Source: Candidatus Mediterraneibacter quadrami (GTDB lineage: Bacteria > Bacillota > Clostridia > Lachnospirales > Lachnospiraceae). From it: DNA of 48,257 nucleotides. The position numbers were made by a program, and so were the translations under genes. Below, in pieces: positions 28,714 through 40,714 of the stretch. Location: NCBI GenBank assembly GCA_019120575.1, contig DWUU01000009.1, forward strand, positions 1-48,257, read 5' to 3'. The notes beneath the pieces are model-generated. The model was not told the DNA's origin. It made no database searches and worked only from the letters and a program-made list of their open reading frames with translations. Each line of letters opens with the position of its first letter. Position 1 is the first letter of the stretch.

Positions 28714-29457
28714 CTATTTCCCGCCGTATTCTATGCTTTTAAGGACCAGTCCCTGAGGCGGCGCTGTCGCACCGGTTTTTCCTTTGTTTTCCCCTTTGAT
28801 CAGCTCCTTTACACTTTCCGGAGAACGGAATCCCCGCCCCGCCTCAACCAGTGTGCCGGTGATGATCCTGACCATATTGTAGAGGAACCCGTTCCCGCTG
28901 ATCCGGAGCGTAATCAGGTCGCCCGCCCGCTCCACATCCAGACTGAAAACCGTGCGCACGGTCGTCTTCGCCCCGGTGTGGATATTACAGAAATTGCGGA
29001 AATCATGTTCCCCGACAAAATAAGACGCTGCCAGACACATCTTCTCCTTATCGAGGGGAAATGACACATGCCAGGCGTCCCGTCTGCGAAGGGGATCCGG
29101 CATCTCCCGGTTCAGAATGCGGTACTCGTATGTCTTCACCGAAGCCTGACGCCGCGGATGCCAGTCCGTCGGCACTTCCTCCGACTGCACCACCACGATA
29201 TCCTCCGGCAGCAGCGGATTCACCGCACAGGCGAACCGCTCCGGCGGAATCGTAGACGACGTGTCAAACACCGCCACATTTCCCTCGGCATGCACACCCG
29301 CATCCGTCCGGCTGGCGCCAGTCACCGCAATCTCTTCCCCCGTCAGCCGGGAAAGCGCTTTATTCAGTACTTCTTCAATCGTGATCCCGTTGGGCTGGAC
29401 CTGCCAGCCACAGTAATCCGTACCGTCGTAAGCGACGGTCAGCTTAATCCTTTTCAT
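28714..29457 (-). CDS. truA: tRNA pseudouridine(38-40) synthase
   Basis: Forms pseudouridine at positions 38-40 of the tRNA anticodon arm. The 247 aa product begins MKRIKLTVAYDGTDYCGWQVQPNG and has the catalytic Asp in GASRTDAGVHAEGNVAVF, plus the C-terminal RISGNGFLYNMVRIITGTL. AAGGAGA precedes the ATG. The ecfA1-ecfA2-ecfT-truA order is standard in Firmicutes. Here a 62 bp palindromic repeat is inserted between ecfT and truA. Confidence 0.97.
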   Translation of the reverse strand: MKRIKLTVAYDGTDYCGWQVQPNGITIEEVLNKALSRLTGEEIAVTGASRTDAGVHAEGNVAVFDTSSTIPPERFACAVNPLLPEDIVVVQSEEVPTDWHPRRQASVKTYEYRILNREMPDPLRRRDAWHVSFPLDKEKMCLAASYFVGEHDFRNFCNIHTGAKTTVRTVFSLDVERAGDLITLRISGNGFLYNMVRIITGTLVEAGRGFRSPESVKELIKGENKGKTGATAPPQGLVLKSIEYGGK

Positions 29458-29469
29458 AGAATCTCCTTG

Positions 29470-29531
29470 ATTGGGGACGTAGTAAAATTGAATTTTACTA
29501 CGTCCCCAATTAAAGTTTGCCCTGTCCCAAA
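29470..29531 (-). repeat. REP-like composite palindromic repeat, copy 2
   Basis: Read on the minus strand: TTTGGGACA (29531-29523), a 13 nt variable core (29522-29510), then a perfect palindrome with two 20 nt arms around one base (29510-29491 and 29489-29470). The arm includes TTGGGGACGTAGTAAAATT. Relative to copy 1 at 23310, the tag, the 13 nt spacing and the palindrome are kept while the core differs except for a central GCAAA. It lies in the ecfT-truA gap, ending next to the truA ribosome site. Confidence 0.85.
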
Positions 29532-29556
29532 GGTGAAACAGATCAATATACCATCA

Positions 29557-30381
29557 TCAGAATATCCACAGTTTAAAGGGTAAAAAACGTCCGACTACAA
29601 ACATTATGACAAGATAGATCAAGGTGATAAAATATGCAGCCCGGTCTCTGCCGTGATAGTGCAGAGGCTTCATTTTTGTCCGACCGTCCCCGCCGTGGTA
29701 GCAACGCGCTTCCATTGCCATTGCCAGGTCATTGGCGCGCCGGAATGCGGATACAAACAGAGGGACCAGGATTGGCACCATGGCTTTTGCCCGCTGGATG
29801 ATGTTCCCGCTCTCGAAATCCGCCCCTCTCGCCTGCTGAGCTTTCATGATCTTGTCCGTCTCTTCCAGCAGAATCGGAATGAACCGGAGCGCAATGGACA
29901 TCATCATTGCCACTTCGTGAACCGGTACGTTGAACCGGTTCAGCGGATGGAGAAGTTTCTCCATGCCGTCAGTCAGGCCGTTTGGCGATGTGGTAAAGGT
30001 CATGATAGAAGACCCGGCCACCAGATACATGAGCCGGACCGCCATGAATACGGAAGTCCTGAGCCCGTTCTCTGTGATGGTGAAAATACCGAACTGTACC
30101 AGGATCTCCCCTCCGTCCGTCAGGAACAGGTTCATCACCACGGTAAACAAAAGCAGGATCACCACCGGTTTCAGGCCTTTAAGTATGTATTTGAGCGGCA
30201 CTTTTGACAGACGGATCACGCATCCCAGATAAATGGTCGCGATCACATAGCCGGGCAGGCTGTTCTGGATAAAAAGCGACACGAGAAAAAGCAGGGTGCA
30301 GACGATCTTCACCCTGGGATCCAGTCTGTGTATCCGGCTCTCAGCCGGGTAATACTGCCCGATTGTTATATCTCTGATCAT
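29557..30381 (-). CDS. ecfT: Energy-coupling-factor transporter transmembrane protein
   Basis: Membrane coupling subunit of the group II ECF transporter, which links interchangeable vitamin-binding S components to the two ATPases. The 274 aa product has about five hydrophobic segments and the coupling-helix motif QQARGADFESG; a second Ala-Arg-Gly-like motif appears as MAMEARCYHGG. It starts 11 bp after ecfA2. No S component is encoded in the window, as expected for a shared ECF module. Confidence 0.95.
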   Translation of the reverse strand: MIRDITIGQYYPAESRIHRLDPRVKIVCTLLFLVSLFIQNSLPGYVIATIYLGCVIRLSKVPLKYILKGLKPVVILLLFTVVMNLFLTDGGEILVQFGIFTITENGLRTSVFMAVRLMYLVAGSSIMTFTTSPNGLTDGMEKLLHPLNRFNVPVHEVAMMMSIALRFIPILLEETDKIMKAQQARGADFESGNIIQRAKAMVPILVPLFVSAFRRANDLAMAMEARCYHGGDGRTKMKPLHYHGRDRAAYFITLIYLVIMFVVGRFLPFKLWIF

Positions 30382-30392
30382 AATAGTTCCTC

Positions 30393-31253
30393 TTAAATCT
30401 TTCCACTGCGCCGGAAGCTTCCGAGGATCTCCTCCGCCGCTTCCCTGATCGTTGTGGCATCCGGGGACACGTCGAATCCCCGCGCCTGCAGGTCATGCAT
30501 AACATAGGTAACCTGGGGCGCCGCAAGTCCGACCTTCTCCAGTTCTTTATAATGCCGGAATACCTCCCGGGGCGTCCCGTCCAGCATCTTCTCCCCGTGG
30601 TTCATGACGATGAGCCGCTCCACATAGCGGGCCACATCCTCCATACTGTGGGAGACCAGGATCACGGTCATACCCGTTTTCCGGTGCAGTTCGCTGATCT
30701 GGTCCAGGATCTCATCCCGTCCCTTCGGATCAAGCCCCGCCGTCGGCTCATCCAGAATGAGCACCTTCGGACGCATGGCCAGCACGCCGGCGATGGCCAC
30801 CCGCCGCTTCTGACCGCCGGACAGTTCAAAAGGCGACTGTTTATAATATTTCTCAGGGAACCCGACGTGCTCCAGCGCTTCCCGTGCCCGCTTCTCGCAC
30901 TCGTCCTGCGGAAGGCCCTGGTTCTTCGGCCCGAAGCAGACATCGCTTATCACATCCACCTCAAAAAGCTGGTACTCCGGATACTGGAACACCAACCCCA
31001 CCCGCGTGCGCAGCTCCCGCATGTTATATCCGTCTTCGTAAATGTTCTGCCCGTCATAGAGGACTCTTCCGGATGTCGCACGGACCAGCCCGTTCAGGTG
31101 CTGGATCAGCGTGGATTTCCCGGAACCGGTATGTCCGATGATCCCCACGAACTGCCCCTGCGGGATCTCAAAACTCACGTCCCTCAGAGCATGCTTCTCA
31201 TAGGCCGTGCCCGGACTGTATACATAACTTACATGTTCTAACGCAATCGACAT
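30393..31253 (-). CDS. ecfA2: Energy-coupling-factor transporter ATPase 2
   Basis: ABC-type ATPase of the ECF module. The 286 aa product has Walker A GHTGSGKSTLIQHLNGL, Q-loop FQYPEYQLFE, signature LSGGQKRRVAIAGVL, Walker B LILDEPTAGLD and the switch His in LVSHSMED. The start overlaps the end of ecfA1 by 16 bp, indicating coupled translation. Confidence 0.96.
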   Translation of the reverse strand: MSIALEHVSYVYSPGTAYEKHALRDVSFEIPQGQFVGIIGHTGSGKSTLIQHLNGLVRATSGRVLYDGQNIYEDGYNMRELRTRVGLVFQYPEYQLFEVDVISDVCFGPKNQGLPQDECEKRAREALEHVGFPEKYYKQSPFELSGGQKRRVAIAGVLAMRPKVLILDEPTAGLDPKGRDEILDQISELHRKTGMTVILVSHSMEDVARYVERLIVMNHGEKMLDGTPREVFRHYKELEKVGLAAPQVTYVMHDLQARGFDVSPDATTIREAAEEILGSFRRSGKI

Positions 31254-32095
31254 AATGCTTCCACCAATTCTTCTCTTCTGAGGATCCCTTCCGGAAGATC
31301 CAGCCCCTGCCGGCGAAGCTCCTCCGCCAGCATCGTTACCTGGGGAACGTCCATACGGTAAGTCTTCAGCTCATCCACCCGGCTGAAAATCTCCCGGGGC
31401 GTCCCGTACATCACGATATGCCCGCCGTCCATGACAAACACCTGATCCGCATCGATCACTTCTTCCATATAGTGGGTGATCAGGATGACGGTAACCTGCT
31501 TCTTCTTCCTGAGTTCCTCCACCGCCCGGATCACTTCTTTTCTTCCGTTCGGATCCAGCATGGCGGTGGGCTCATCCAGCACAATGCATTTTGGCTCCAT
31601 GGCCAGCACGCCGGCGATGGCTACCCGCTGCTTCTGCCCGCCGGACAGCCTGTTCGGCGAATCTTTCCTGCGCTCCAGCATGCCCACGGCCTTCAGACTT
31701 TCTTCCACCCGTTGCCAGATCTCGTCTGTGGGCACGCCCAGATTCTCCGGACCGAATCCCACATCCTCCTCCACAACCGTTCCGATAATCTGGTTGTCCG
31801 GATTCTGAAATACCATGCCCGCCGTCTGCCGCACATCCCAGAGCTGTGCCGGATCCTTCGTATCCCGGCCGTCCACCCACATGGTCCCGCCGGTGGGCAC
31901 AAGAATGGCGTTCATATGCTTGGCAAGGGTTGATTTCCCCGACCCGTTATGTCCGAGGACAGCCACAAAAGAGCCCTGGGGAATATCAATATCAACTCCG
32001 TCAATGGCCCGCTCGGAGCCGATCACATTTCCCTCATCATCCCGCTTGTCATACTCATAGATCAGTTGTTCGGCATGTATCATCCCGGCCGGCAT
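31238..32095 (-). CDS. ecfA1: Energy-coupling-factor transporter ATPase 1
   Basis: Partner ATPase of EcfA2. The 285 aa product has Walker A GHNGSGKSTLAKHM, Q-loop FQNPDNQIIG, signature LSGGQKQRVAIAGVL, Walker B IVLDEPTAMLD and the switch His in LITHYMEEV. AGGAGGTGA lies just upstream of the ATG at 32095. First gene of the ecf-truA operon, with a promoter about 80 bp upstream. Confidence 0.96.
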   Translation of the reverse strand: MPAGMIHAEQLIYEYDKRDDEGNVIGSERAIDGVDIDIPQGSFVAVLGHNGSGKSTLAKHMNAILVPTGGTMWVDGRDTKDPAQLWDVRQTAGMVFQNPDNQIIGTVVEEDVGFGPENLGVPTDEIWQRVEESLKAVGMLERRKDSPNRLSGGQKQRVAIAGVLAMEPKCIVLDEPTAMLDPNGRKEVIRAVEELRKKKQVTVILITHYMEEVIDADQVFVMDGGHIVMYGTPREIFSRVDELKTYRMDVPQVTMLAEELRRQGLDLPEGILRREELVEALCRLR

Positions 32096-32231: not shown

Positions 32232-32305
32232 CAAAAAACTCCCGGGACAGGACCCGGAACAGATCAGCTTTCCAAAGCCTCTTTATTCCAGTTCCGTCCC
32301 GGGAG
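32232..32305 (-). terminator. Intrinsic terminator after the hypB-to-TIM-barrel gene cluster
   Basis: On the minus strand CTCCCGGGAC (32305-32296) pairs with GTCCCGGGAG (32248-32239). A weaker inner stem (GGAAC with GTTCC) continues it, and six U's follow the closing arm. It lies 35 bp after the stop of the TIM-barrel gene, marking the end of that transcription unit and insulating the ecf promoter. Confidence 0.8.
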
Positions 32306-32339: not shown

Positions 32340-33269
32340 TTATCGGTTAAGGGACGACGCCATCCGGTGATACGTATGCCGCACGCCCCGGATCACCTTC
32401 CCGTATTCCAGGATATTCTCCGGGAGAGCCATGCCCAGATATCCGGAATCCCCCAGATGATGAAGGTCCGTCCCGGTCATCTTGCACATCAGGGCAATCT
32501 CACGGATCGTTGCTGTATCCGCACCTTCCTGGGATGTTCCGATGGCAGTCAGGGTCAGTTTACCCAGACTGTGGGCGCAGGACACCAGCCCTCGGATATA
32601 TTCGGTGGTAATGCCCGGCACCGTCCCCGGCGCAGGCATGAGCACCACGTCTGCGCCCGCGCCGATAAACGCCCGCACATCTTCTTCCGTGATGATATTC
32701 TCCCCGCTTTCTGCAAGCACGCCCGCCGCATGCATCTTCCCGGCAATGAGCATCACCCGGTCGCCGAATTCCTGCCGGAATTTCCGGAGCGTATGGATGA
32801 TTGCCGCATTCGTCACGCCCACCCCCGGATTGCCAGTGAGGACGATAAAGTCCACGCCCATGTCTATGGCTTTGCGGACATTCTCAACGGTCGCCGCCCG
32901 CCCGGAAGTCAGATGCCATTCTCCGTTTGTCTCCACGGAACTCTCCACATCCTCCTCCAGAGGTTCCAGATTGATCCCCACAGCCCGGCCGGTCAGCCAC
33001 TTCACTTCCCGGATCACATCTTCCGGCGCCGTCTCCGGCAGCCCCTGCACCTCCGGCTTATTTACGTCAAATAAATTCAGGATCAGCAGATCCGCACCCA
33101 TGGCGCAGGCGAACTCTGCGTTGGTCACATCCCCGAGCATCGGACGCACCGCTCCGATTGTCTCACACACCAGAAGCCTTCCCTCGCTTCCCGCAATGGC
33201 GTCGATCAGCTGCGCGCTGTCCATCTTGAGAATATCCGACGCCGTACAGTTTAAATATCTTTTTCCCAT
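32340..33269 (-). CDS. TIM-barrel-like protein of unknown function (resembles DUF7916 / PEP-phosphonomutase-like proteins)
   Basis: A 309 aa cytoplasmic protein. Alternating strand-like segments ending in small or acidic residues (LLVCETIGAVRPML, GADLLILNLFDVN, GVDFIVLTGNPGVGVTN, VMLIAGKMHAAGV, GADVVLMPAPGTVPG) suggest a TIM barrel. The start (KRYLNCTASDILKMDSAQLIDAI) resembles a family often mislabelled as haloacid dehalogenase or PEP phosphonomutase; I recall this as DUF7916 but could not check. No catalytic residues can be assigned. Its start shares one base with the stop of the membrane protein gene upstream, so the two are translationally coupled. Last gene of the HypAB cluster. Confidence 0.75.
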   Translation of the reverse strand: MGKRYLNCTASDILKMDSAQLIDAIAGSEGRLLVCETIGAVRPMLGDVTNAEFACAMGADLLILNLFDVNKPEVQGLPETAPEDVIREVKWLTGRAVGINLEPLEEDVESSVETNGEWHLTSGRAATVENVRKAIDMGVDFIVLTGNPGVGVTNAAIIHTLRKFRQEFGDRVMLIAGKMHAAGVLAESGENIITEEDVRAFIGAGADVVLMPAPGTVPGITTEYIRGLVSCAHSLGKLTLTAIGTSQEGADTATIREIALMCKMTGTDLHHLGDSGYLGMALPENILEYGKVIRGVRHTYHRMASSLNR

Positions 33270-34318
33270 TATTTCATCTCCGCTCTCGCTGCCGCGTTCT
33301 TGTAATATTTAAATTCTGTAAATACTTCGTTTTTATACGGATTGATCTTTTTCTTCTTAGACGCATAAATGATGTACGCAAGCGCCGCGATATTCGTCAC
33401 CAGCGCCAGCACGCTCACCACGGTCATCATCGTCGGGTCTGCGTTCGCATTTCCGCCTGCGGCAATGCCGTTCAGCGTCCCGTCCGCGTAAAGCTTCGGA
33501 AGCGTCGCCCACGGGAAAAGCTGCGTCCCGTCGGAGAGCGTCTCCTGGAAGAGCGGAAACACCTGGGCAAACATGCACCAGATGCACAGCGTGTTCGCAC
33601 GGTTCATGATCCAGCCGCCCTTGTTCCAGAGGAGCGCCGCGATGGTCGGCGCCAGAAGGAGCGCCACGCCGCAGAACCAGGAATGGGTGGGCAGACAGTT
33701 GTATGTATAGGCGAAGTTCCAGATATCATAGACGATGATGTAGACCCAGATCATATCCGGCCAGATCATGTCCTTCTTATCCTTTGAACTGTACACCGCC
33801 CACCAGCCGGTCATACAGAAAATGTTGATGATGCCGGCAAGTCCGTTGAACACATTGTGCCAGCCGCCGAAGAGCCAGACGTCCTCGGAGGACAGCCACC
33901 AGGAATACCATCCGTTGATGGCGGATTCGAAATCACTGGCAACCGCGATCAGGATGTTGATCGCCACGATCACGAACGGATAGGCTTTAAACCAGTGGGT
34001 CCTGCCGATGCCCCACTCATACTTGATCATCATAAATCCGATACAGCCCGCCAGCGACGCATAGAGCTTCGCATAGTGGAACCAACCGTTCATGTAGACG
34101 TGGGTCTGATTGGTCAGCGCCCACTCCGCGCCCATCCCGGCGCCTACGGCAATGGCGATGAAGTAAACCGTCAGCGCCGCCGGGATCACGAAGAACATGA
34201 TGATCCCTCCGGCTTTCGTTCTCCTCGCAAATTCATTGAGCAGGATCAGCGCCGCCAGAACTCCCAGCATGGCGATCCACTGCGGTACAGCCTCCGCACC
34301 GTAAACATGAAACAGCAT
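33269..34318 (-). CDS. Trp-rich polytopic membrane protein (DUF5692-like), unknown function
   Basis: A 349 aa protein with about nine to ten hydrophobic segments, beginning WIAMLGVLAALILL. It is rich in Trp, Tyr and Phe, with motifs such as GWHNVFNGLAGIINIFCMTGWW, WVYIIVYDIWNFAYTYN and CLPTHSWFCGVALLLAP. It ends in a lysine-rich cytoplasmic tail. It looks like the family I know as DUF5692, which has no described function. It lies 65 bp after hypA, behind an AAGGGGG-type ribosome site, and abuts the TIM-barrel gene. A transporter or small-molecule membrane enzyme is possible, but nothing in the sequence decides. Confidence 0.75.
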   Translation of the reverse strand: MLFHVYGAEAVPQWIAMLGVLAALILLNEFARRTKAGGIIMFFVIPAALTVYFIAIAVGAGMGAEWALTNQTHVYMNGWFHYAKLYASLAGCIGFMMIKYEWGIGRTHWFKAYPFVIVAINILIAVASDFESAINGWYSWWLSSEDVWLFGGWHNVFNGLAGIINIFCMTGWWAVYSSKDKKDMIWPDMIWVYIIVYDIWNFAYTYNCLPTHSWFCGVALLLAPTIAALLWNKGGWIMNRANTLCIWCMFAQVFPLFQETLSDGTQLFPWATLPKLYADGTLNGIAAGGNANADPTMMTVVSVLALVTNIAALAYIIYASKKKKINPYKNEVFTEFKYYKNAAARAEMK

Positions 34319-34383
34319 AACAAATGCCCCCTTTTCTCTCTTTTGTTAATTTTTAATGGAACGGTCCGGACTTTTCTCCGGGC

Positions 34384-34728
34384 TCAGCACGCCTCGATCT
34401 CCCGGATATTGCACTCGTCCCCCGCCGCCAGGTATGTATCCCAGCTGCCGCAGTGCGGGCACTGACGGCCATACTGCACGGTCGGGTATGTCTTTCCGCA
34501 GGCTTCGCAGTACGTCACCGCGGGCAGGATCTCGATCTTCATCTCCGCCTTCTCGATGAGCGGGAACTTCTTCCGGTAATACGCCCAGCAGTCCGTCAGA
34601 TAATCCGGGACGATGGAGCTGACCTCCCCCACCTCCAGGGTGACCGAGCCGATCTCATTTAAATGATTTTCTTTTGCAACACTCTGAAGCGTCTTTGTGA
34701 TGTGTACGATTATCCCTAATTCATGCAT
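34384..34728 (-). CDS. hypA: Nickel metallochaperone HypA
   Basis: HypA binds nickel through its N-terminus and hands it to target enzymes together with HypB. The 114 aa product begins MHELGI, keeping the Met-His-Glu nickel site, and has a zinc site of two CxxC pairs (Cys74/77 in YCEACG and Cys90/93 in QCPHCG) with the family spacing. It sits between the large oxidoreductase (17 bp upstream) and the membrane protein. No hypC, hypD, hypE, hypF or [NiFe]-hydrogenase subunit is in the window, so its client is not obvious. Confidence 0.93.
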   Translation of the reverse strand: MHELGIIVHITKTLQSVAKENHLNEIGSVTLEVGEVSSIVPDYLTDCWAYYRKKFPLIEKAEMKIEILPAVTYCEACGKTYPTVQYGRQCPHCGSWDTYLAAGDECNIREIEAC

Positions 34729-34745
34729 TTTTCTCTTCCGGCTTT

Positions 34746-37439
34746 TCAGTTCTTCTTAAATTTGATCCTGATGGCGCGTTTGAGCGCATAGGGCAGGATG
34801 CCTTTCAGCTTGTCCTCCGCTTTTCTCATGGTGCTCATCTCCGGCAGGTCGCGGCTTAAATGAATAGCGTCGAACTCGCATCGCGTCGTACACAGGCCGC
34901 AGCCGATGCATTTATTCTCATCCACGACCGTGGCTCCGCATCCGAGGCATCTGGCGGCCTCGATCTTCACCTGCTCTTCCGTAAATGTACTGCGCAGGTC
35001 GCGGAAGCTCTCTTTCGCAATCCCGGCTTTCCTTCCCGGGATCTGCCGCTTCGCGTTGTCAAACTCCTCCAGCACCACATCGTCCTTGTCAAGCTCTGTA
35101 AACTGCCGCAGGTCGCGCCCCAGCGTCAGAGAATGCCCTTCATGCACGAACCGGTGGATGGATTCACAGCCCTGTTTGCCCGCCGCGATAGCATCGATGG
35201 CAAACTTCGGTCCCGTATAGACGTCGCCGCCCACGAAGATATCCGGCTCTGCCGTCTGGTATGTCACCGGATCCGCCTTGGCCGTCCCGTTGGGATTGAA
35301 TTCCACTGCCGTACCTTTCAGGAGTTCGCCCCACTGGATGGACTGGCCGATGGACAGGAGCACATTTTCGCACGGTACGGTCATGCACTCGTTCTCATCA
35401 TATACCGGTGCGAACCGGCCTTCCGCATTAAATACAGATGTACACTTTTTGAGGACAATGCCTGTGACTTTACCGCCTTCCGTCAGGATCTCTTTCGGTC
35501 CCCATCCGTTCCAGACGATCACGCCTTCTTCCCGGGCCTCCGCCACTTCGTCCGCAGCCGCCGGCATCTCTTCCGGGCTCTCCAGACAGTACATGCTGAC
35601 CGCCTCCGAACCGGAGCGGAGCGCTGTCCTGGCCACATCGATGGCCACATTCCCGCCGCCGACGACCACAGTTCTGCCGGAAAGTTCTGCACGGCTCTCC
35701 GCCAGATTGATCTGGTACAGGAATTCTACGCCGGTCTGCACGCCATCCGCATCCTCGCCGGGAACGCCCGCTTTCCTGCCGCCCTGGGCGCCGATGGCCA
35801 CATAGAAGGCGCGGTAGCCTTCTTCGCGCAGCTGCGGGATCGTTATGTCTCTGCCTGCTTCCACTCCACATCGGAACTCCACATCCATCTGCCGGAGTAC
35901 GTCGATCTCCGCTTCGATCACGGACTTCTCCAGCCGGAATGTTGGAATGCCGTTCAGCAGCATGCCGCCGGGCCGCTCAGCTTTTTCAAAAACGGTTACC
36001 GGGTAGCCCTTCGTCTTCAGATAATATGCCGCCGACATGCCGGCCGGCCCTGCGCCGATGACCGCGATCTTCTGCTCAAACTGTTTTCCCTCATGGTTCT
36101 CGCAGAGCGGAACATACCGGTGTTCTTCATGGAGCTCCTGCTCCGCGATGAATTTCTTGATCTCATCAATGGCAACGGCCTGATCCACCGTGCCCCTTGT
36201 GCAGGCATCCTCACAGCGCCGGTTGCAGATCGCGCCGCACACGGCCGGGAAAGGATTGTCCTGTTTGATCAGCCTCAGCGCGTCCAGATGCCGTCCCTCC
36301 GCCGCCATCTTTATGTAGCCCTGCACTGCCAGGTGCGCCGGACAGGCTGTCTTGCACGGCGACGTACCGGTCTCGTAGCAGTTGATCTTCGCATGGTCCC
36401 GGTAATCCGGATCCCATTTGTCACGTCCCCACTTCTCCGCATCCGGGAGCAGCGCTTTCGGATATTTGATCTCGCCGTGCTTCGTGCAGAGCTTCTGCCC
36501 CAGCTTCGCCGCGCCCACGGGACAGACCTCCACGCACTTTCCGCAGGCAACGCATTTTTCTTTCTCCACATGCGCCCGGTATGCGGAACGGGACATGTTC
36601 GGCGTATTGAAAAGCTGGGACGTCCGGAGTCCGTTGCAGACGCCCGGCGCGCAGTTACAGATGGCGAAGATCTTCTCCTCGCCGTCGATATTGGTAATCT
36701 GGTGTACGAATCCGTTCCGCTCGGCGCGCTCCAGGATCTCCATCACTTCGTCCAGATCGATATAGCGCCCTTTTCCTGTCTCCACGAGATAGTCCGCCAT
36801 GTCGCCCACGCCGATGCACAAGTCGCCCTCGATCTCTCCGCACCCCTCGCCGCGCATGGTCTGCTGCCGGCGGCAGGAGCAGGCGCCCACTGCGTATTTA
36901 TCCTGATATTTCCTAAGCCAGTGGGAAATGTGCTCCACACTCGCAGACTGCTGCTGCGCCGGGATCGCCTTCTCCACCGGAATGACATGCATCCCGATGC
37001 CGGAGCCGCCCGGCGGCACCATCGGCGTCACCTTCTCAAGGGGCAGCCGGGACATGTTTTCAAAGAAATCCGCCAGCACCGGATGCTCCTCGGTCTGCTT
37101 CTTGTTCATCATCATAAACTCCGCGCAGCCGGGCACGAACATGGGGAGCACGTATTGTTTATGTCTGTCCTCATTTTCCCAGTTGTACTCGATCATGCCG
37201 ATCACGGACATCTCATCAAGGAGCTGCTGTACTCTCGCCTTGTCTTTCCCCGACTTCTTCGCGATCTGCTCCAGTGTCATCGGCTTTCTGACTTTCATGG
37301 ACAGACATACTTCCGCCATCTCGTCGGTAAGTACTTCCGCAAGCCCCCAGTACTCGGGGTCGTCCACCGTCACCTTATGCCCGATCCGGTCTGTGATCAT
37401 CTGCCCCAGTTTCAGGATCAGTTTTCTCTCTTCACTCAT
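34746..37439 (-). CDS. Multidomain FAD-dependent iron-sulfur oxidoreductase with N-terminal HTH-like and ferredoxin modules
   Basis: An 897 aa soluble protein built from recognisable modules. Residues 54-84 resemble a winged HTH (MTLEQIAKKSGKDKARVQQL). Residues 187-268 carry clustered cysteines (CSC at 187-189, Cys200, Cys208, CNC at 261-263, Cys268). Residues 296-306 are a 4Fe-4S motif CVACGKCVEVCP. Residues 354-413 contain the cysteines of a GltD/NfnB-type N-terminal cluster domain. FAD binding GAGPAGMSAAYYL starts at 462, NAD(P)H binding VVGGGNVAIDVA near 595, and a second FAD site GGDVYTGPKFAIDAIAAGKQG follows. A C-terminal ferredoxin part has CLGCG and CIGCGLCTTRC near 840-865. Predicted to move electrons between NAD(P)H and ferredoxin or an unknown partner. 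It overlaps hypB by 4 bp. Confidence 0.88.
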   Translation of the reverse strand: MSEERKLILKLGQMITDRIGHKVTVDDPEYWGLAEVLTDEMAEVCLSMKVRKPMTLEQIAKKSGKDKARVQQLLDEMSVIGMIEYNWENEDRHKQYVLPMFVPGCAEFMMMNKKQTEEHPVLADFFENMSRLPLEKVTPMVPPGGSGIGMHVIPVEKAIPAQQQSASVEHISHWLRKYQDKYAVGACSCRRQQTMRGEGCGEIEGDLCIGVGDMADYLVETGKGRYIDLDEVMEILERAERNGFVHQITNIDGEEKIFAICNCAPGVCNGLRTSQLFNTPNMSRSAYRAHVEKEKCVACGKCVEVCPVGAAKLGQKLCTKHGEIKYPKALLPDAEKWGRDKWDPDYRDHAKINCYETGTSPCKTACPAHLAVQGYIKMAAEGRHLDALRLIKQDNPFPAVCGAICNRRCEDACTRGTVDQAVAIDEIKKFIAEQELHEEHRYVPLCENHEGKQFEQKIAVIGAGPAGMSAAYYLKTKGYPVTVFEKAERPGGMLLNGIPTFRLEKSVIEAEIDVLRQMDVEFRCGVEAGRDITIPQLREEGYRAFYVAIGAQGGRKAGVPGEDADGVQTGVEFLYQINLAESRAELSGRTVVVGGGNVAIDVARTALRSGSEAVSMYCLESPEEMPAAADEVAEAREEGVIVWNGWGPKEILTEGGKVTGIVLKKCTSVFNAEGRFAPVYDENECMTVPCENVLLSIGQSIQWGELLKGTAVEFNPNGTAKADPVTYQTAEPDIFVGGDVYTGPKFAIDAIAAGKQGCESIHRFVHEGHSLTLGRDLRQFTELDKDDVVLEEFDNAKRQIPGRKAGIAKESFRDLRSTFTEEQVKIEAARCLGCGATVVDENKCIGCGLCTTRCEFDAIHLSRDLPEMSTMRKAEDKLKGILPYALKRAIRIKFKKN

Positions 37440-38107
37440 TTATCCGCCTCCTTCCATTCCTTTACCTGTTCTCTTATCCAGCCGTACCACTCTTCCATCC
37501 CCTCGCCCGTCTTCGCAGAGACCGGGATGATCTTCATATCCGGGTTCAGCCGCAGCACCCGCTCCCTGCAGGCGTCGAAGTCGAAGTCAAAACAGGACGC
37601 CGCATCAATCTTATTGATCAGCAGGCAGTGGGACACCTGAAACATGAGCGGATATTTCAGCGGCTTGTCATCTCCCTCCGGAACGCTTAAGATCATCACG
37701 TTCTTCACCGCGCCGGTGTCAAATTCCGCCGGGCACACCAGATTGCCCACATTTTCCAGGATGGCCAGATCCACGTCGTCAGTCCCCAGTTCTTCCAGCC
37801 CCTGGCGGGTCATATCCGCATCCAGGTGACACATGCCGCCGGTGTGGAGCTGGATCACCTTCGCCCCGGTCTCACTGATGGCGTCCGCGTCAACCGCGCT
37901 GTCAATGTCCGCCTCCATCACGCCGATGCGCATCTCATCCTGCAGCGCCCGGATCGTACGCTGCAGAGTGGTCGTCTTCCCGCCGCCCGGCGAAGACATC
38001 AGGTTGATCAGGAAGGTGCCGTTTTCTTTCAGCTCCTTCCGGACCTTGTCCGCCTCCTGGTCATTGTCGTCAAATATCCGTTTCTTGATCTCGTATACTT
38101 TGTACAT
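37436..38107 (-). CDS. hypB: Nickel-insertion GTPase HypB
   Basis: SIMIBI-class GTPase that works with HypA in nickel delivery. The 223 aa product has P-loop SSPGGGKTT at residues 38-46, switch EADIDSAVD, the conserved metal pair Cys93-His94 in GGMCHLDADM, a further metal-site Cys125 in NVGNLVCPAEFD and the guanine motif NKID at 165-168. The extra N-terminal CxxCGC nickel site of the E. coli protein is absent, as in many species. It starts 13 bp after the tetR stop and overlaps the oxidoreductase gene by 4 bp (ATGA). Confidence 0.95.
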   Translation of the reverse strand: MYKVYEIKKRIFDDNDQEADKVRKELKENGTFLINLMSSPGGGKTTTLQRTIRALQDEMRIGVMEADIDSAVDADAISETGAKVIQLHTGGMCHLDADMTRQGLEELGTDDVDLAILENVGNLVCPAEFDTGAVKNVMILSVPEGDDKPLKYPLMFQVSHCLLINKIDAASCFDFDFDACRERVLRLNPDMKIIPVSAKTGEGMEEWYGWIREQVKEWKEADK

Positions 38108-38120
38108 CGTCCTCTCTCCT

Positions 38121-38768
38121 CTAAGCTTTCAGTCCGTCGATCATGAGCTGCACCGCGATCTTCACCTGCAGGAGCAGGCTCACCTTCAGATCCAGGTTCA
38201 GCATGCTCCCGTTCCACGCCAGACGCTTCATCAGGCCGAACAGCGTATGCGCCAGAGAATAGCAGACTTCATCCGGCGTCCATTCAAAAGACAGGGTCCG
38301 GTCATTCAGCCCCTTTTCCAGTGCATCCGTGACCCGCGGCTTCAGGCTCATGATGCAGGCCTCATACTCCGTCAGCTTCTCTTTCGCCACCCGGTTCTGG
38401 AAAATGAATACGTCAAATTCCTGCAGATATTTGAAAAACGCTTCCTCATGCTCAAAGATCCGCACAAGCGCATTCAATATGTACTGCAACTGCTCCAGCC
38501 CGGTCATGTCCGGGTAGCCGGCGACGCCATTCACATCCAGGTATTCACTGTCGATCTTTCTCCAGTAAGCGACTCCCGCTTCCACGGCAAGTCCGGCCTT
38601 GGTGTCATAGTAACGGTAGATCGTGGCGCTTCCCACGCCGGCACGCGCGGCGATCTCATCAACCGAAGTCTGCTCGATCCCCTTTTCACAGAACAGCTCC
38701 ATGGCCGCCGCGATGATCTTCTGCGAACGGTACCGGGAGCTGCGGATCCGTGCCTGGGATTCTTTCAT
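38121..38768 (-). CDS. TetR-family transcriptional regulator, probable local repressor of the HypAB cluster
   Basis: The start is set at the ATG at 38768 (MKESQARIRSSRYRSQKIIAA), which has GGGAG/GAGG upstream and gives 215 aa; a longer frame from 38831 would read through the promoter and operator. The N-terminal HTH is typical of TetR proteins: AAMELFCEKGIEQTSVDEIA, then GVGSATIYRYYDTKAGL. The C-terminal ligand domain is unrecognised. It is the first gene of the cluster and lies 13 bp before hypB. A perfect palindrome overlapping its -10 box suggests it represses itself and the downstream genes until an unknown ligand binds. Confidence 0.9.
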   Translation of the reverse strand: MKESQARIRSSRYRSQKIIAAAMELFCEKGIEQTSVDEIAARAGVGSATIYRYYDTKAGLAVEAGVAYWRKIDSEYLDVNGVAGYPDMTGLEQLQYILNALVRIFEHEEAFFKYLQEFDVFIFQNRVAKEKLTEYEACIMSLKPRVTDALEKGLNDRTLSFEWTPDEVCYSLAHTLFGLMKRLAWNGSMLNLDLKVSLLLQVKIAVQLMIDGLKA

Positions 38769-38793
38769 AGGGCACCTCTCCCTTCTGTTCCTT

Positions 38794-38812
38794 ATGATAG
38801 TCATACTATCAT
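38794..38812. promoter_or_regulatory. Perfect palindromic operator, probable TetR site
   Basis: ATGATAGT (38794-38801), a 3 nt centre, then ACTATCAT (38805-38812): a 19 bp perfect inverted repeat of the size TetR dimers usually bind. It covers the predicted -10 box of the promoter driving the TetR gene, so bound repressor would block polymerase. Confidence 0.7.
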
Positions 38813-38831
38813 ATTTATATATTGCTTTCAA
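38803..38831 (-). promoter_or_regulatory. Promoter of the TetR-hypB-oxidoreductase-hypA cluster
   Basis: TTGAAA (38831-38826, five of six), 17 bp spacer and TAGTAT (38808-38803, four of six) on the minus strand. The -10 box is inside the palindrome 38794-38812. It is AT-rich and 35 bp upstream of the regulator's ATG. Confidence 0.65.
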
Positions 38832-38890: not shown

Positions 38891-39766
38891 TCACTCTGCT
38901 TTCCCCTGGAACCCTTCTCCGAACACCTCGCTTGTCTCGGTAAACATACAGAACGCCCCGGCATCCGCTTCCTGCACCGCCTGTTTTATCAGCCACGCCT
39001 CCGCCTTGGCGCAGGCGCACAGCAGTACATCCCGATGCATGCCGGTGTAGCCGCCGGACGCCGGGATCACCGTGACGCCCCGCCGCACATTTTCCCGGAT
39101 CCGCTCCGTAACCGCCGCCCCCTGCTCCGTAATAATAATGGCCAGCGCGCCCGCGCCGGCGCCGTACAGGATCTTGTCCAGCACGATGGCGGAGATCCCG
39201 GTCGCCGTCAGCCCGTAGAGCGCCGCATCCACATCCCCGAACACCGACCAGCCCAGCAGGATCACCGCAAGGTCAATGGCCATGGTGATCACACCGATCG
39301 ACAGGTACGGCTTTTTCTTCTTGATCGTAAGCGTCAGGAAATCAATGCCGCCCGAGGATGATCCGCGGATATAGAACAGCGCCATCCCGCATCCCAGAAA
39401 TACGCCGGAACAAAGCGCCGCCATCAGCCTGCTTCCGGAATACACGGGCAGCACCGGAAAGACCGCATCAAGGAAAAACGAAGCGATCACCATCGTCTTC
39501 GCGCTTTTCAGGAGCAGCCGCTTTCCCACCGCCTTATAACTGATCAGGACAAGCGGAATATTAAAAAGAAGGGTCAGTGTTCCCACCGGAAAACCGGTCA
39601 GATCATTCAGGATAAGCGCCAGGCCGGTCACGCCGCCCGGAGCAAAATCCGCATTTCCCGCAAAGGTATAAATGCCGGCAGCATAAAGGATGCTGCCGGC
39701 AATATCATAGAGGAGATCCCAGAGCAGGATCTTCAGATTAAAACTGTTCTTTAAGCCTGAAATCAT
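38891..39766 (-). CDS. YitT family membrane protein, copy 1
   Basis: A 291 aa protein with an N-terminal membrane domain of about five or six helices carrying the family GGVTGLALIL near residue 44 and RGSSSGGIDFLTL near 134, and a soluble C-terminal DUF2179-type domain (LAIIITEQGAAVTERI...GVTVIPASGGYTG). The family's function is not established. It lies about 75 bp downstream of a second YitT gene of similar length, so the two look like an old tandem duplication with considerable divergence. Confidence 0.9.
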   Translation of the reverse strand: MISGLKNSFNLKILLWDLLYDIAGSILYAAGIYTFAGNADFAPGGVTGLALILNDLTGFPVGTLTLLFNIPLVLISYKAVGKRLLLKSAKTMVIASFFLDAVFPVLPVYSGSRLMAALCSGVFLGCGMALFYIRGSSSGGIDFLTLTIKKKKPYLSIGVITMAIDLAVILLGWSVFGDVDAALYGLTATGISAIVLDKILYGAGAGALAIIITEQGAAVTERIRENVRRGVTVIPASGGYTGMHRDVLLCACAKAEAWLIKQAVQEADAGAFCMFTETSEVFGEGFQGKAE

Positions 39767-39841
39767 TTCCTCACCATTCCCATCCGATCTGTTGGAAACA
39801 GCATTTGTATTCTTCAGACAGATTATGCATTCGTTCCCGTT

Positions 39842-40714
39842 CTATCTGTGCCCGGCCGCCTGATGCTTCGGAAGGGTGAAGCCTTTGCCGCTGACTTCGT
39901 TTACTTTCGCCACTACCATAAATGCGTTGGGATCAATCTCCGTGACCAGCCGGTTCAGATGCGCCAGCTGCCGGTTGGAGATGACGGTCATGATCATATC
40001 CTGCTCCTTTTTCAGATAGCCGGTCGCTGTATGGATCAGGGTGGATCCGCGGTCCATCTCCCGGTTGATGGCGGTATTGATCTCCTCCACCCTCTCGCTT
40101 ATGATCTTCACCTGGGTCTGCGCGCGTCCGAATACCAGCACTTTATCCAGCACGATCGTATAAGTCATGACCAGGAGGATCCCGTACAGGATCGCTTCCT
40201 TATCCGAGAACAGCATCTGGCCGATCAGGATCACAATGTCAAATGCGTACAAAAGCCCCGATACCGGCAGCCCCAGCTTTTTGTTCAGGATCAGCGGCGG
40301 GATATCCATTCCGCCTGTGGATGCTCCCGCCCGGATCACGATGCCCAGGGCAAATCCGATGAACAGTCCGCCAAAGAGACTGGACAGGAGCCGGTCATCG
40401 GTGATCCCTTCCGCGACAGCCGGAATGCGCTGAAAAAACTCCAGAGCAACCGGATAGAAAAACGTGCTGAGCAACGTCGTCATTGCAAATGCTCTGCCAA
40501 GGACAACCAGGCCGAGAATAAACATCACGGCATTGAACAGAAAGACAAACGCCGAGATCGGCAGGCTGGTATAATGCCCGACGATCAGGGACAGGCCCGT
40601 CGTCCCGCCCGTCATCAGGCCGTTCGGCAGGATAAACATAACGATCCCCAATGCCATGGCCGCATTCCCCAGCAGGATCATAAAAATATTAGAAAGCTTA
40701 AACACGGAATTCAT
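39842..40714 (-). CDS. YitT family membrane protein, copy 2
   Basis: A 290 aa YitT protein starting MNSVFKLSNIFMILLGNAAMA. It has membrane motifs TGGTTGLSLIV and RAGASTGGMDIPPLIL and the C-terminal DUF2179-type domain (VKIISERVEEINTAI...GSTLIHTATGYLKKE). It is 49 bp downstream of a DUF4143 ATPase gene. Its leader shares about 30 bp with the leader of the second ATPase gene at 44843. A remnant of a gene like this one is found at 43531-43578. Confidence 0.9.
   Translation of the reverse strand: MNSVFKLSNIFMILLGNAAMALGIVMFILPNGLMTGGTTGLSLIVGHYTSLPISAFVFLFNAVMFILGLVVLGRAFAMTTLLSTFFYPVALEFFQRIPAVAEGITDDRLLSSLFGGLFIGFALGIVIRAGASTGGMDIPPLILNKKLGLPVSGLLYAFDIVILIGQMLFSDKEAILYGILLVMTYTIVLDKVLVFGRAQTQVKIISERVEEINTAINREMDRGSTLIHTATGYLKKEQDMIMTVISNRQLAHLNRLVTEIDPNAFMVVAKVNEVSGKGFTLPKHQAAGHR

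Follow-up and report, generated by a model that had tools for sequence, protein, structure and literature searches.

Which protein receives nickel from a HypA/HypB pair that is encoded beside a giant flavo-iron-sulfur enzyme, and what reaction does that protein carry out? This question is raised by positions 32,340 to 38,831 of a 48,257-nt stretch of DNA from Candidatus Mediterraneibacter quadrami (Lachnospiraceae; contig DWUU01000009.1), the whole of which is called the window here. Judged from gene content across genomes, the 897-aa IsrA-type oxidoreductase encoded at this locus is likely the nickel client of HypA and HypB. We further propose, with about an even chance of being right, that this reductase hydrogenates a conjugated unsaturated fatty acid, with nickel from its own HypA/HypB pair and with a DUF5692 protein as membrane partner. 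The operon consists of six genes on one strand (-) with gaps or overlaps of 13, -4, 17, 65, and -1 bp, all confirmed by re-reading the open reading frames (ORFs):

38121..38768, minus strand: TetR-family regulator (TetR_N, 1.1e-16), 215 aa from an ATG start at 38768; ORF extendable to TTG 38831
37436..38107, minus strand: HypB GTPase of the IsrA-linked type (TIGR00073, 4e-76; Walker A SSPGGGKT; HypB tree)
34746..37439, minus strand: IsrA-type flavin adenine dinucleotide (FAD)/iron-sulfur oxidoreductase, 897 aa (Fer4_20, Pyr_redox_2, and Fer4; six-Cys site)
34384..34728, minus strand: HypA nickel metallochaperone (PF01155, 1e-30; metal ligands)
33269..34318, minus strand: DUF5692 polytopic membrane protein (PF18948, 5.5e-132)
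32340..33269, minus strand: DUF7916 protein, last gene, lineage-specific (PF25509, 2.9e-127)

In the mechanism that we propose, TetR would control the operon for the IsrA-type reductase, and electrons would pass from NAD(P)H through FAD and a [4Fe-4S] chain to a six-Cys metal site in the N-terminal domain of the enzyme. HypB (distinct from the hydrogenase HypB of the same genome) and HypA would load nickel into this site, where a conjugated C=C-C=C system would be hydrogenated to a monoene, while DUF5692 would be a membrane partner handing over or preparing the lipid-borne substrate. The natural substrate would most likely be a conjugated unsaturated fatty acid, e.g., conjugated linoleic acid (CLA); with such a substrate, the operon would serve both to detoxify polyunsaturated fat and as an electron sink.

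By its domain architecture, six-Cys site, and adjoining hypA and hypB, the window enzyme is judged to be of the IsrA kind. It contains Fer4_20 (PF14691, 8.2e-21), Pyr_redox_2 (PF07992, 4.8e-25), and two further Fer4 sites (Fer4 at residues 291-310 and Fer4_21 at 838-863), as well as an N-terminal six-Cys site with two CxC motifs (C187xC189, C208, C261xC263, and C268); these six Cys were invariant in 12/12 rows of one homologue alignment and in 29/29 rows of another. A structure model of the enzyme was poor (predicted local distance difference test [pLDDT] 62.4; predicted TM-score [pTM] 0.57). IsrA itself is the putative isoprene reductase of Acetobacterium wieringae ISORED-2, a 901-aa, isoprene-induced protein with PF14691, PF07992, two further Fer4 sites (about 289-300 and 848-877), and a six-Cys site with two CxC motifs; its operon also encodes two HypA, one HypB, and one ferredoxin, and the neighbor frequencies among 988 IsrA homologues are 0.73 for HypA, 0.56 for HypB, 0.21 for TetR, and 0.40 for DUF5692 (Kronen 2023, PMC10134865). 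An isoprene-reducing strain is also able to reduce 1,3-butadiene and leaves ethene and propene unreduced (PMC9765523). The window system thus resembles the isr operon and the clade 9 IsrA homologues in enzyme size (~900 aa), domains, the two CxC motifs of the six-Cys site, and the adjoining hypA and hypB, and it shares TetR and DUF5692 with the known neighborhoods of IsrA homologues; it differs from the A. wieringae operon in lacking a second HypA gene and the 4Fe-4S ferredoxin gene and in having DUF5692 and DUF7916. Because HypA, HypB, TetR, and DUF5692 have already been reported beside IsrA homologues, the gene cluster as such is not new, and the case for IsrA as a nickel client has also been made before (Kronen 2023, PMC10134865); the isomerase context of relatives described below is unmentioned in the parts of that account consulted.

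Co-occurrence of these genes was assessed in a family sample, a fixed set of 150 genera of Lachnospiraceae, and in a class sample of 331 genomes, at least 12 of them from the window's family (window genome included). Full-length IsrA was defined by E <1e-60, for which 6 of 37 genomes with weaker matches were dropped (G013, G022, G046, G098, G111, and G140); a DUF5692 fragment in G092 was dropped as well. In the family sample, IsrA was found in 31/150 genomes overall, being present in 21/21 genomes with full DUF5692 and in 10/129 others (Fisher 2e-18, a value that treats genomes as independent). This co-occurrence also holds where both genes are at distant loci; therefore, DUF5692 seems dependent on IsrA and not merely adjacent to it. 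Among the 80 best named loci of at least 579 DUF5692 relatives, some of them cut by contig ends, IsrA was found in 61, HypB in 53, HypA in 51, and all four core genes in 42, while a TetR like that of the window was found in three (all Mediterraneibacter) and an adjoining DUF7916 in two. The six genes, which the original prediction had treated as one unit, are thus not kept together; the recurring unit is HypB-IsrA-HypA-DUF5692, in this or a shuffled order, from Lachnospiraceae to Bacteroidales, and TetR and DUF7916 are local additions to this four-gene core.

The DUF5692 protein is Trp-rich, as predicted (20 Trp in 349 residues), and is 100% identical to its counterparts in loci L132 and L133. 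Its AlphaFold2 model (pLDDT 77.6; pTM 0.79) is that of a mostly helical membrane protein, for which a comparison with PDB structures gave no informative match. Many polar residues are invariant in a 21-row alignment (e.g., E29, D129, D183, D188, D198, N201, Y204, and Y206), a pattern that suits DUF5692 as an enzyme. In the literature searched, DUF5692 was found as a term in one source alone (Kronen 2023, PMC10134865). In one further locus (L049, G113:C166), the genes for DUF5692, for a reductase of the Fer2/NAD type, and for a CrtI-like flavoprotein stand in one row with an ORF that matches DUF5692 weakly (4.6e-4). L145 (11101-11439) and 35 further named loci encode a small protein with a median length of 115 aa and a median position between HypA and DUF5692; the L145 protein (112 aa) has no Pfam match.

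Clues to the substrate come from the other neighbors of IsrA. All neighbors within 7 kb of 60 IsrA loci were clustered without prior choice. These loci were the window, 36 family loci (37 of 38 matches used, window included; the partial match G109:C69 was dropped), 19 class-sample loci, and four others; the 31 class-sample matches comprised these 19 new loci, three already in the set (the window, L229, and L230), and nine left out. The largest clusters were HypA (52 loci), HypB (43), DUF5692 (23), a 235-aa regulator whose tested members are of the GntR/FCD type (19), an ABC-transporter-like cluster (11), and homologues of PAI (6). PAI is a polyunsaturated-fatty-acid isomerase with linoleic acid as its known substrate and a conjugated diene as its product. 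The transporter-like cluster aside, PAI is the commonest enzyme family near IsrA after the core, and its six loci belong to the window's family (L113 and L118) and to families f71, f77, f24, and f56. Symporters, ABC transporters, sensors, and similar neighbors were judged incidental.

PAI homologues (E <1e-15) were detected in 5/150 family genomes, of which 5/5 carry IsrA and 0/5 carry DUF5692; in the class sample, the single genome of 331 with a PAI homologue (1e-40) is also one of the 26/331 with IsrA. The best PDB match was 2b9w, which we take to be the PAI of Cutibacterium (Propionibacterium) acnes (PDB name "putative aminooxidase"), for all three homologues tested, two of which are from the four loci outside the window's family (2.8e-62 and 6.8e-24). 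Two residues that presumably line the fatty-acid channel, Arg at position 88 and Phe at position 193 of 2b9w, are kept in L118 and L288 (alignment, counted by eye). The relation of the window to the C. acnes enzyme is one of context, in that homologues adjoin IsrA in related genomes, whereas the operon proteins themselves belong to other families. With regard to individual loci, L279 retains only the last 94 PAI residues and was left out of the six, the PAI-family protein of L293 was found by phmmer but not by tblastn at 1e-10, and the "PAI" tree label of L122 was a false flavin-domain match to a BaiCD protein, no PAI being found there by tblastn. In the IsrA tree, the window falls in an 11-row group (Shimodaira-Hasegawa-like approximate likelihood ratio test 99) together with the PAI-linked L113 and L118.

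A CrtI/carotenoid-isomerase-like flavoprotein (L119) is another neighbor of IsrA. At E <1e-100, it was found in 4/150 genomes, all with IsrA; at 1e-30, it was found in six genomes, five with IsrA, the two additional matches (~1e-50) being in G113 with IsrA and in G048 without it. The CrtI-like gene adjoins HypA-IsrA in G075, adjoins PAI in G043, G109, G130, and G641, and lies beside the IsrA cluster with the PAI remnant in G437.

The reaction proposed for the window enzyme is that of the CLA reductase of Butyrivibrio, which is known as an activity in biohydrogenation. No gene for a CLA reductase was named, and no link between HypB, linoleic acid, and rumen was made, in the literature searched, which covered few subscription journals or preprints; the one source there that joins HypA, HypB, and nickel with biohydrogenation is Kronen 2023 (PMC10134865). 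Two genomes, G321 and G072, match both Butyrivibrio genus primers (PMC4823909) without mismatch; G321 (4.6 Mb) carries the full module, making the evidence for the module in this classical biohydrogenation organism mixed, given the absence of IsrA from G072 (2.3 Mb). The 16S primer pattern proved unspecific as a Butyrivibrio marker (20/397 genomes matched); G321 and G072 are two of these 20, and several of the others were cut before the reverse primer.

Besides G072, several observations weigh against fatty-acid hydrogenation by a nickel-containing IsrA. The genome screens detected neither a PAI homologue nor a CrtI-like gene in the window genome, so only relatives provide the link to fatty acids; these screens scored few candidates per genome (15 for IsrA and 10 for PAI and CrtI-like proteins; 7 and 4 in the class sample), and misses are possible. 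Other IsrA neighbors include BaiCD (G113), an HGD-D dehydratase pair (G148), and an AMP-binding enzyme (G130), and the IsrA family therefore probably has several substrates. Oleate hydratase, which adjoins the IsrA homologues of A. woodii and A. fimetarium (Kronen 2023, PMC10134865), was absent among ten large IsrA neighbors tested. IsrA was not seen in 19/80 named DUF5692 loci, nine of which span >20 kb, and the Fisher values ignore kinship among genomes. The literature yielded no nickel measurement on any family member, and IsrA has been tied to isoprene by proteomics and reverse transcription PCR, not by enzymology (PMC10134865).

Some of these points favor the alternative that the same IsrA-type reductase acts on another conjugated or activated C=C substrate, such as a dietary terpenoid, a polyene, or a bile-acid or aromatic enone, a reading that we regard as possible but on balance unlikely. 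IsrA has been linked to isoprene (Kronen 2023, PMC10134865), one homologue (L122, G113:C189) lies ~3 kb from the BaiCD bile-acid flavoenzyme (1056 bits), CrtI/carotenoid-isomerase-like neighbors occur, and IsrA homologues are diverse in the tree. Against this alternative, PAI is the most recurrent enzyme neighbor after the core (the transporter-like cluster aside), and the PAI-linked IsrAs L113 and L118 fall in the window's own tree group.

A more specific form of the fatty-acid proposal would make HypB-IsrA-HypA-DUF5692 the complete anaerobic biohydrogenation machine of gut and rumen, in which DUF5692 would be a membrane fatty-acid double-bond isomerase and IsrA a nickel-dependent conjugated-fatty-acid reductase; we advance this only tentatively and consider it rather doubtful. 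In the same doubtful scheme, PAI would take the isomerase role where DUF5692 is missing, and uncultured ruminant Bacteroidales would carry the module widely. No genome of the family sample carries both DUF5692 and PAI (p 0.0015 by counting), a hint that DUF5692 may do the job of PAI. A strict substitution was rejected, since DUF5692 occurs together with a distant PAI in three loci from other families (L288, L291, and L293).

It is highly improbable that the IsrA-type protein is instead an electron-bifurcating, transhydrogenase-like device related to NfnL and GltD, with the six-Cys site a mere relay and DUF5692 an anchor or redox partner. The enzyme core does resemble NfnA and GltD-type proteins by sequence, but such a device would leave the dedicated nickel chaperones and the PAI and CrtI-like neighbors unexplained. 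HypA and HypB keep their metal ligands (MHE and C74/77/90/93 in HypA; C93-H94 and C125 in HypB), bearing out the original prediction, and MHE and the two CxxC pairs were kept in 37/37 HypAs examined from IsrA loci. HypB scored above the curated cut-off of TIGR00073 (255.3 vs 121.2 bits), while HypA scored below the cut-off of the hydrogenase equivalog TIGR00100 (73.6 vs 88.1 bits) and above that of the wider family PF01155 (106.5 vs 28.9 bits).

The distribution of these chaperones bears on which operon protein they serve. Near 36 full IsrA family loci (window excluded; centers within 5 kb), HypA was found in 29, HypB in 22, and either in 31, and HypA or HypB was also present in 20/25 IsrA family loci without DUF5692 nearby. 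In the stretches examined, both HypA and HypB were missing from all nine family loci with DUF5692 but no IsrA and likewise from all six family loci with DUF7916 but no IsrA; all nine genomes with DUF5692-only loci carry IsrA elsewhere. Among the 80 best named DUF5692 loci, HypA or HypB was found in 59/61 with IsrA, and HypA was found in 3/19 without it. IsrA is thus likely the nickel client, because HypA and HypB follow IsrA, not DUF5692 or DUF7916, and because the window HypB lies outside the hydrogenase lineage (see below). The suggestion that the client might be the last protein of the operon or the membrane protein finds no support in these counts, and we consider a nickel enzyme of the DUF7916 or DUF5692 family most unlikely: both share the operon, DUF5692 is tightly co-inherited with IsrA, and three IsrA-less loci do have HypA, but these three are small or cut stretches, the DUF-only family loci are without chaperones, and DUF7916 adjoins DUF5692 in only 2/80 named loci. 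The broader prediction of a regulated nickel-handling and redox operon with an uncharacterized client was supported, a local regulator being present.

The absence of HypC-F and of a [NiFe]-hydrogenase, as originally claimed, is true of the six-gene operon but not of the genome (61 contigs, 94% complete): contig C4 contains a complete hypA-hypB-hypF-hypC-hypD-hypE set (L003, G000:C4:87001-106900) and, divergent from it, a hydrogenase set with Proton_antipo_M, NADHdh, Oxidored_q6, 30-kDa, 49-kDa/NiFe, and ferredoxin subunits, which appears to be an Ech-like [NiFe]-hydrogenase (Ech/group 4 type). These genes elsewhere in the genome and the scattering of the six operon genes across loci are the two outcomes that had been named in advance as refuting the original prediction. 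The window operon resembles [NiFe]-hydrogenase maturation systems in its HypA and HypB families and their metal ligands, but differs in having no HypCDEF and no hydrogenase subunits, and in its HypB. In a tree of 38 HypBs, four hydrogenase-locus HypBs (including the window genome's own) are split off by a branch with support 100/98, with the 32 HypBs of IsrA loci on the other side along with two tandem HypBs of G049; HypB was present in five of the 13 hydrogenase loci read (L003 and 12 others). The G049 HypBs owe their "hyd" label to the hydrogenase of G049, 6 to 7 kb away, and since they fall on the IsrA side the "hyd" label needs three changes on the tree. The first Gly of Walker A is replaced by Ser in 29/32 HypBs of IsrA loci and in 1/6 labeled "hyd". 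A NiFe large subunit was detected in 17/150 family genomes and IsrA in 31, with both in five (no association, p 0.35). That the window HypA and HypB serve the Ech-like hydrogenase, which the genome does carry, and stand beside IsrA incidentally is therefore very unlikely indeed, as this hydrogenase has its own adjoining hypABFCDE, the window HypB is off the hydrogenase side of the tree, and no NiFe large subunit was detected in 26/31 genomes with IsrA. Tandem HypB pairs occur near IsrA or in IsrA genomes (L107, L116, L118, L119, and L238), and in all of these except L118 each copy belongs to a different tree group.

The remaining features of the operon concern its regulation and its ends:

38803..38831, minus strand: promoter-like TTGAAA-17-TAGTAT (motif scan)
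38794..38812, minus strand: perfect palindrome ATGATAGT-ATG-ACTATCAT, covering the -10 box; single copy in the window
32240..32259, minus strand: terminator-like hairpin with T-run, past the last gene

The scan found four promoter-like sites where 4.6 were expected by shuffling, so TTGAAA-17-TAGTAT is weak as stand-alone evidence. The palindrome is identical in L132 and L133, which are from one and the same species as the window or from very close ones, and a variant with 7-bp arms, TGATAGTATAACTATCA, is found ahead of tetR in L134; it is probably the TetR operator. The TetR start had been placed at TTG 38831; because this TTG belongs to the -35 box, the ATG at 38768, which follows GGGAGAGG, is the likelier start. 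A strong terminator had also been predicted at the operon end; the hairpin and T-run are present, but such sites are not rare in the window (10 found, 5.6 in shuffled sequence). The last gene had been described as a TIM barrel; its family is DUF7916, which resembles nitronate monooxygenase and dihydrodipicolinate synthase only weakly in sequence. DUF7916 was rejected as a functional member of the system, as only two of its seven true matches in 150 genomes (6 of 13 genomes, with weak partial matches, were dropped) are with IsrA (no association, p 0.63); the literature searched contained no mention of DUF7916 as a term. The place of DUF7916 after DUF5692 is taken in L134 (Candidatus M. tabaqchaliae) by a homologue of YitT that shares 73% identity with the window's. 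Upstream of TetR, two adjoining YitT-family membrane proteins are encoded at 38891-40714, and downstream of the operon (28714-32095) are truA and ORFs resembling an energy-coupling-factor transporter set (two ATPases and a transmembrane subunit; by eye).

By title, 67 of the 80 best named DUF5692 loci are from Bacteroidota metagenome-assembled genomes (MAGs; 68 if L137 is counted, although its IsrA groups with Lachnospiraceae), the rest being Lachnospiraceae or unspecific. At least 23 of the 80 titles mention a ruminant stomach compartment, a count that is no enrichment test because it covers nearest loci only and such MAGs may simply abound in the collection. Reports name uncultured members of Bacteroidales and Lachnospiraceae as possible biohydrogenators in the rumen and call the responsible bacteria uncertain (PMC4353346, PMC6694141), and the many ruminant Bacteroidales MAGs among the module carriers fit these reports. 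HypB-IsrA-HypA-DUF5692 with a GntR/FCD regulator was also found on a Subdoligranulum variabile plasmid (L222; OY725877.1, 185170-204213; 267 kb, typed mobilizable, MOBV), and the module may therefore move.

What is new here is the presence of IsrA in all DUF5692 (21/21) and all PAI (5/5) genomes of the family sample and of PAI within 7 kb of 6/60 IsrA loci. Biohydrogenation by gut and rumen bacteria shapes milk and meat fat and the host's CLA supply, and the question of the reductase becomes directly testable with a module of four genes that goes along with fatty-acid isomerase genes and occurs in many uncultured ruminant Bacteroidales. If the proposal is true, the enzyme would extend nickel enzymes to a new type of reaction, its maturation pair would be distinct from those of hydrogenase, urease, and CO dehydrogenase, and the operon may be the unidentified enzyme system by which gut and rumen bacteria hydrogenate conjugated fats.

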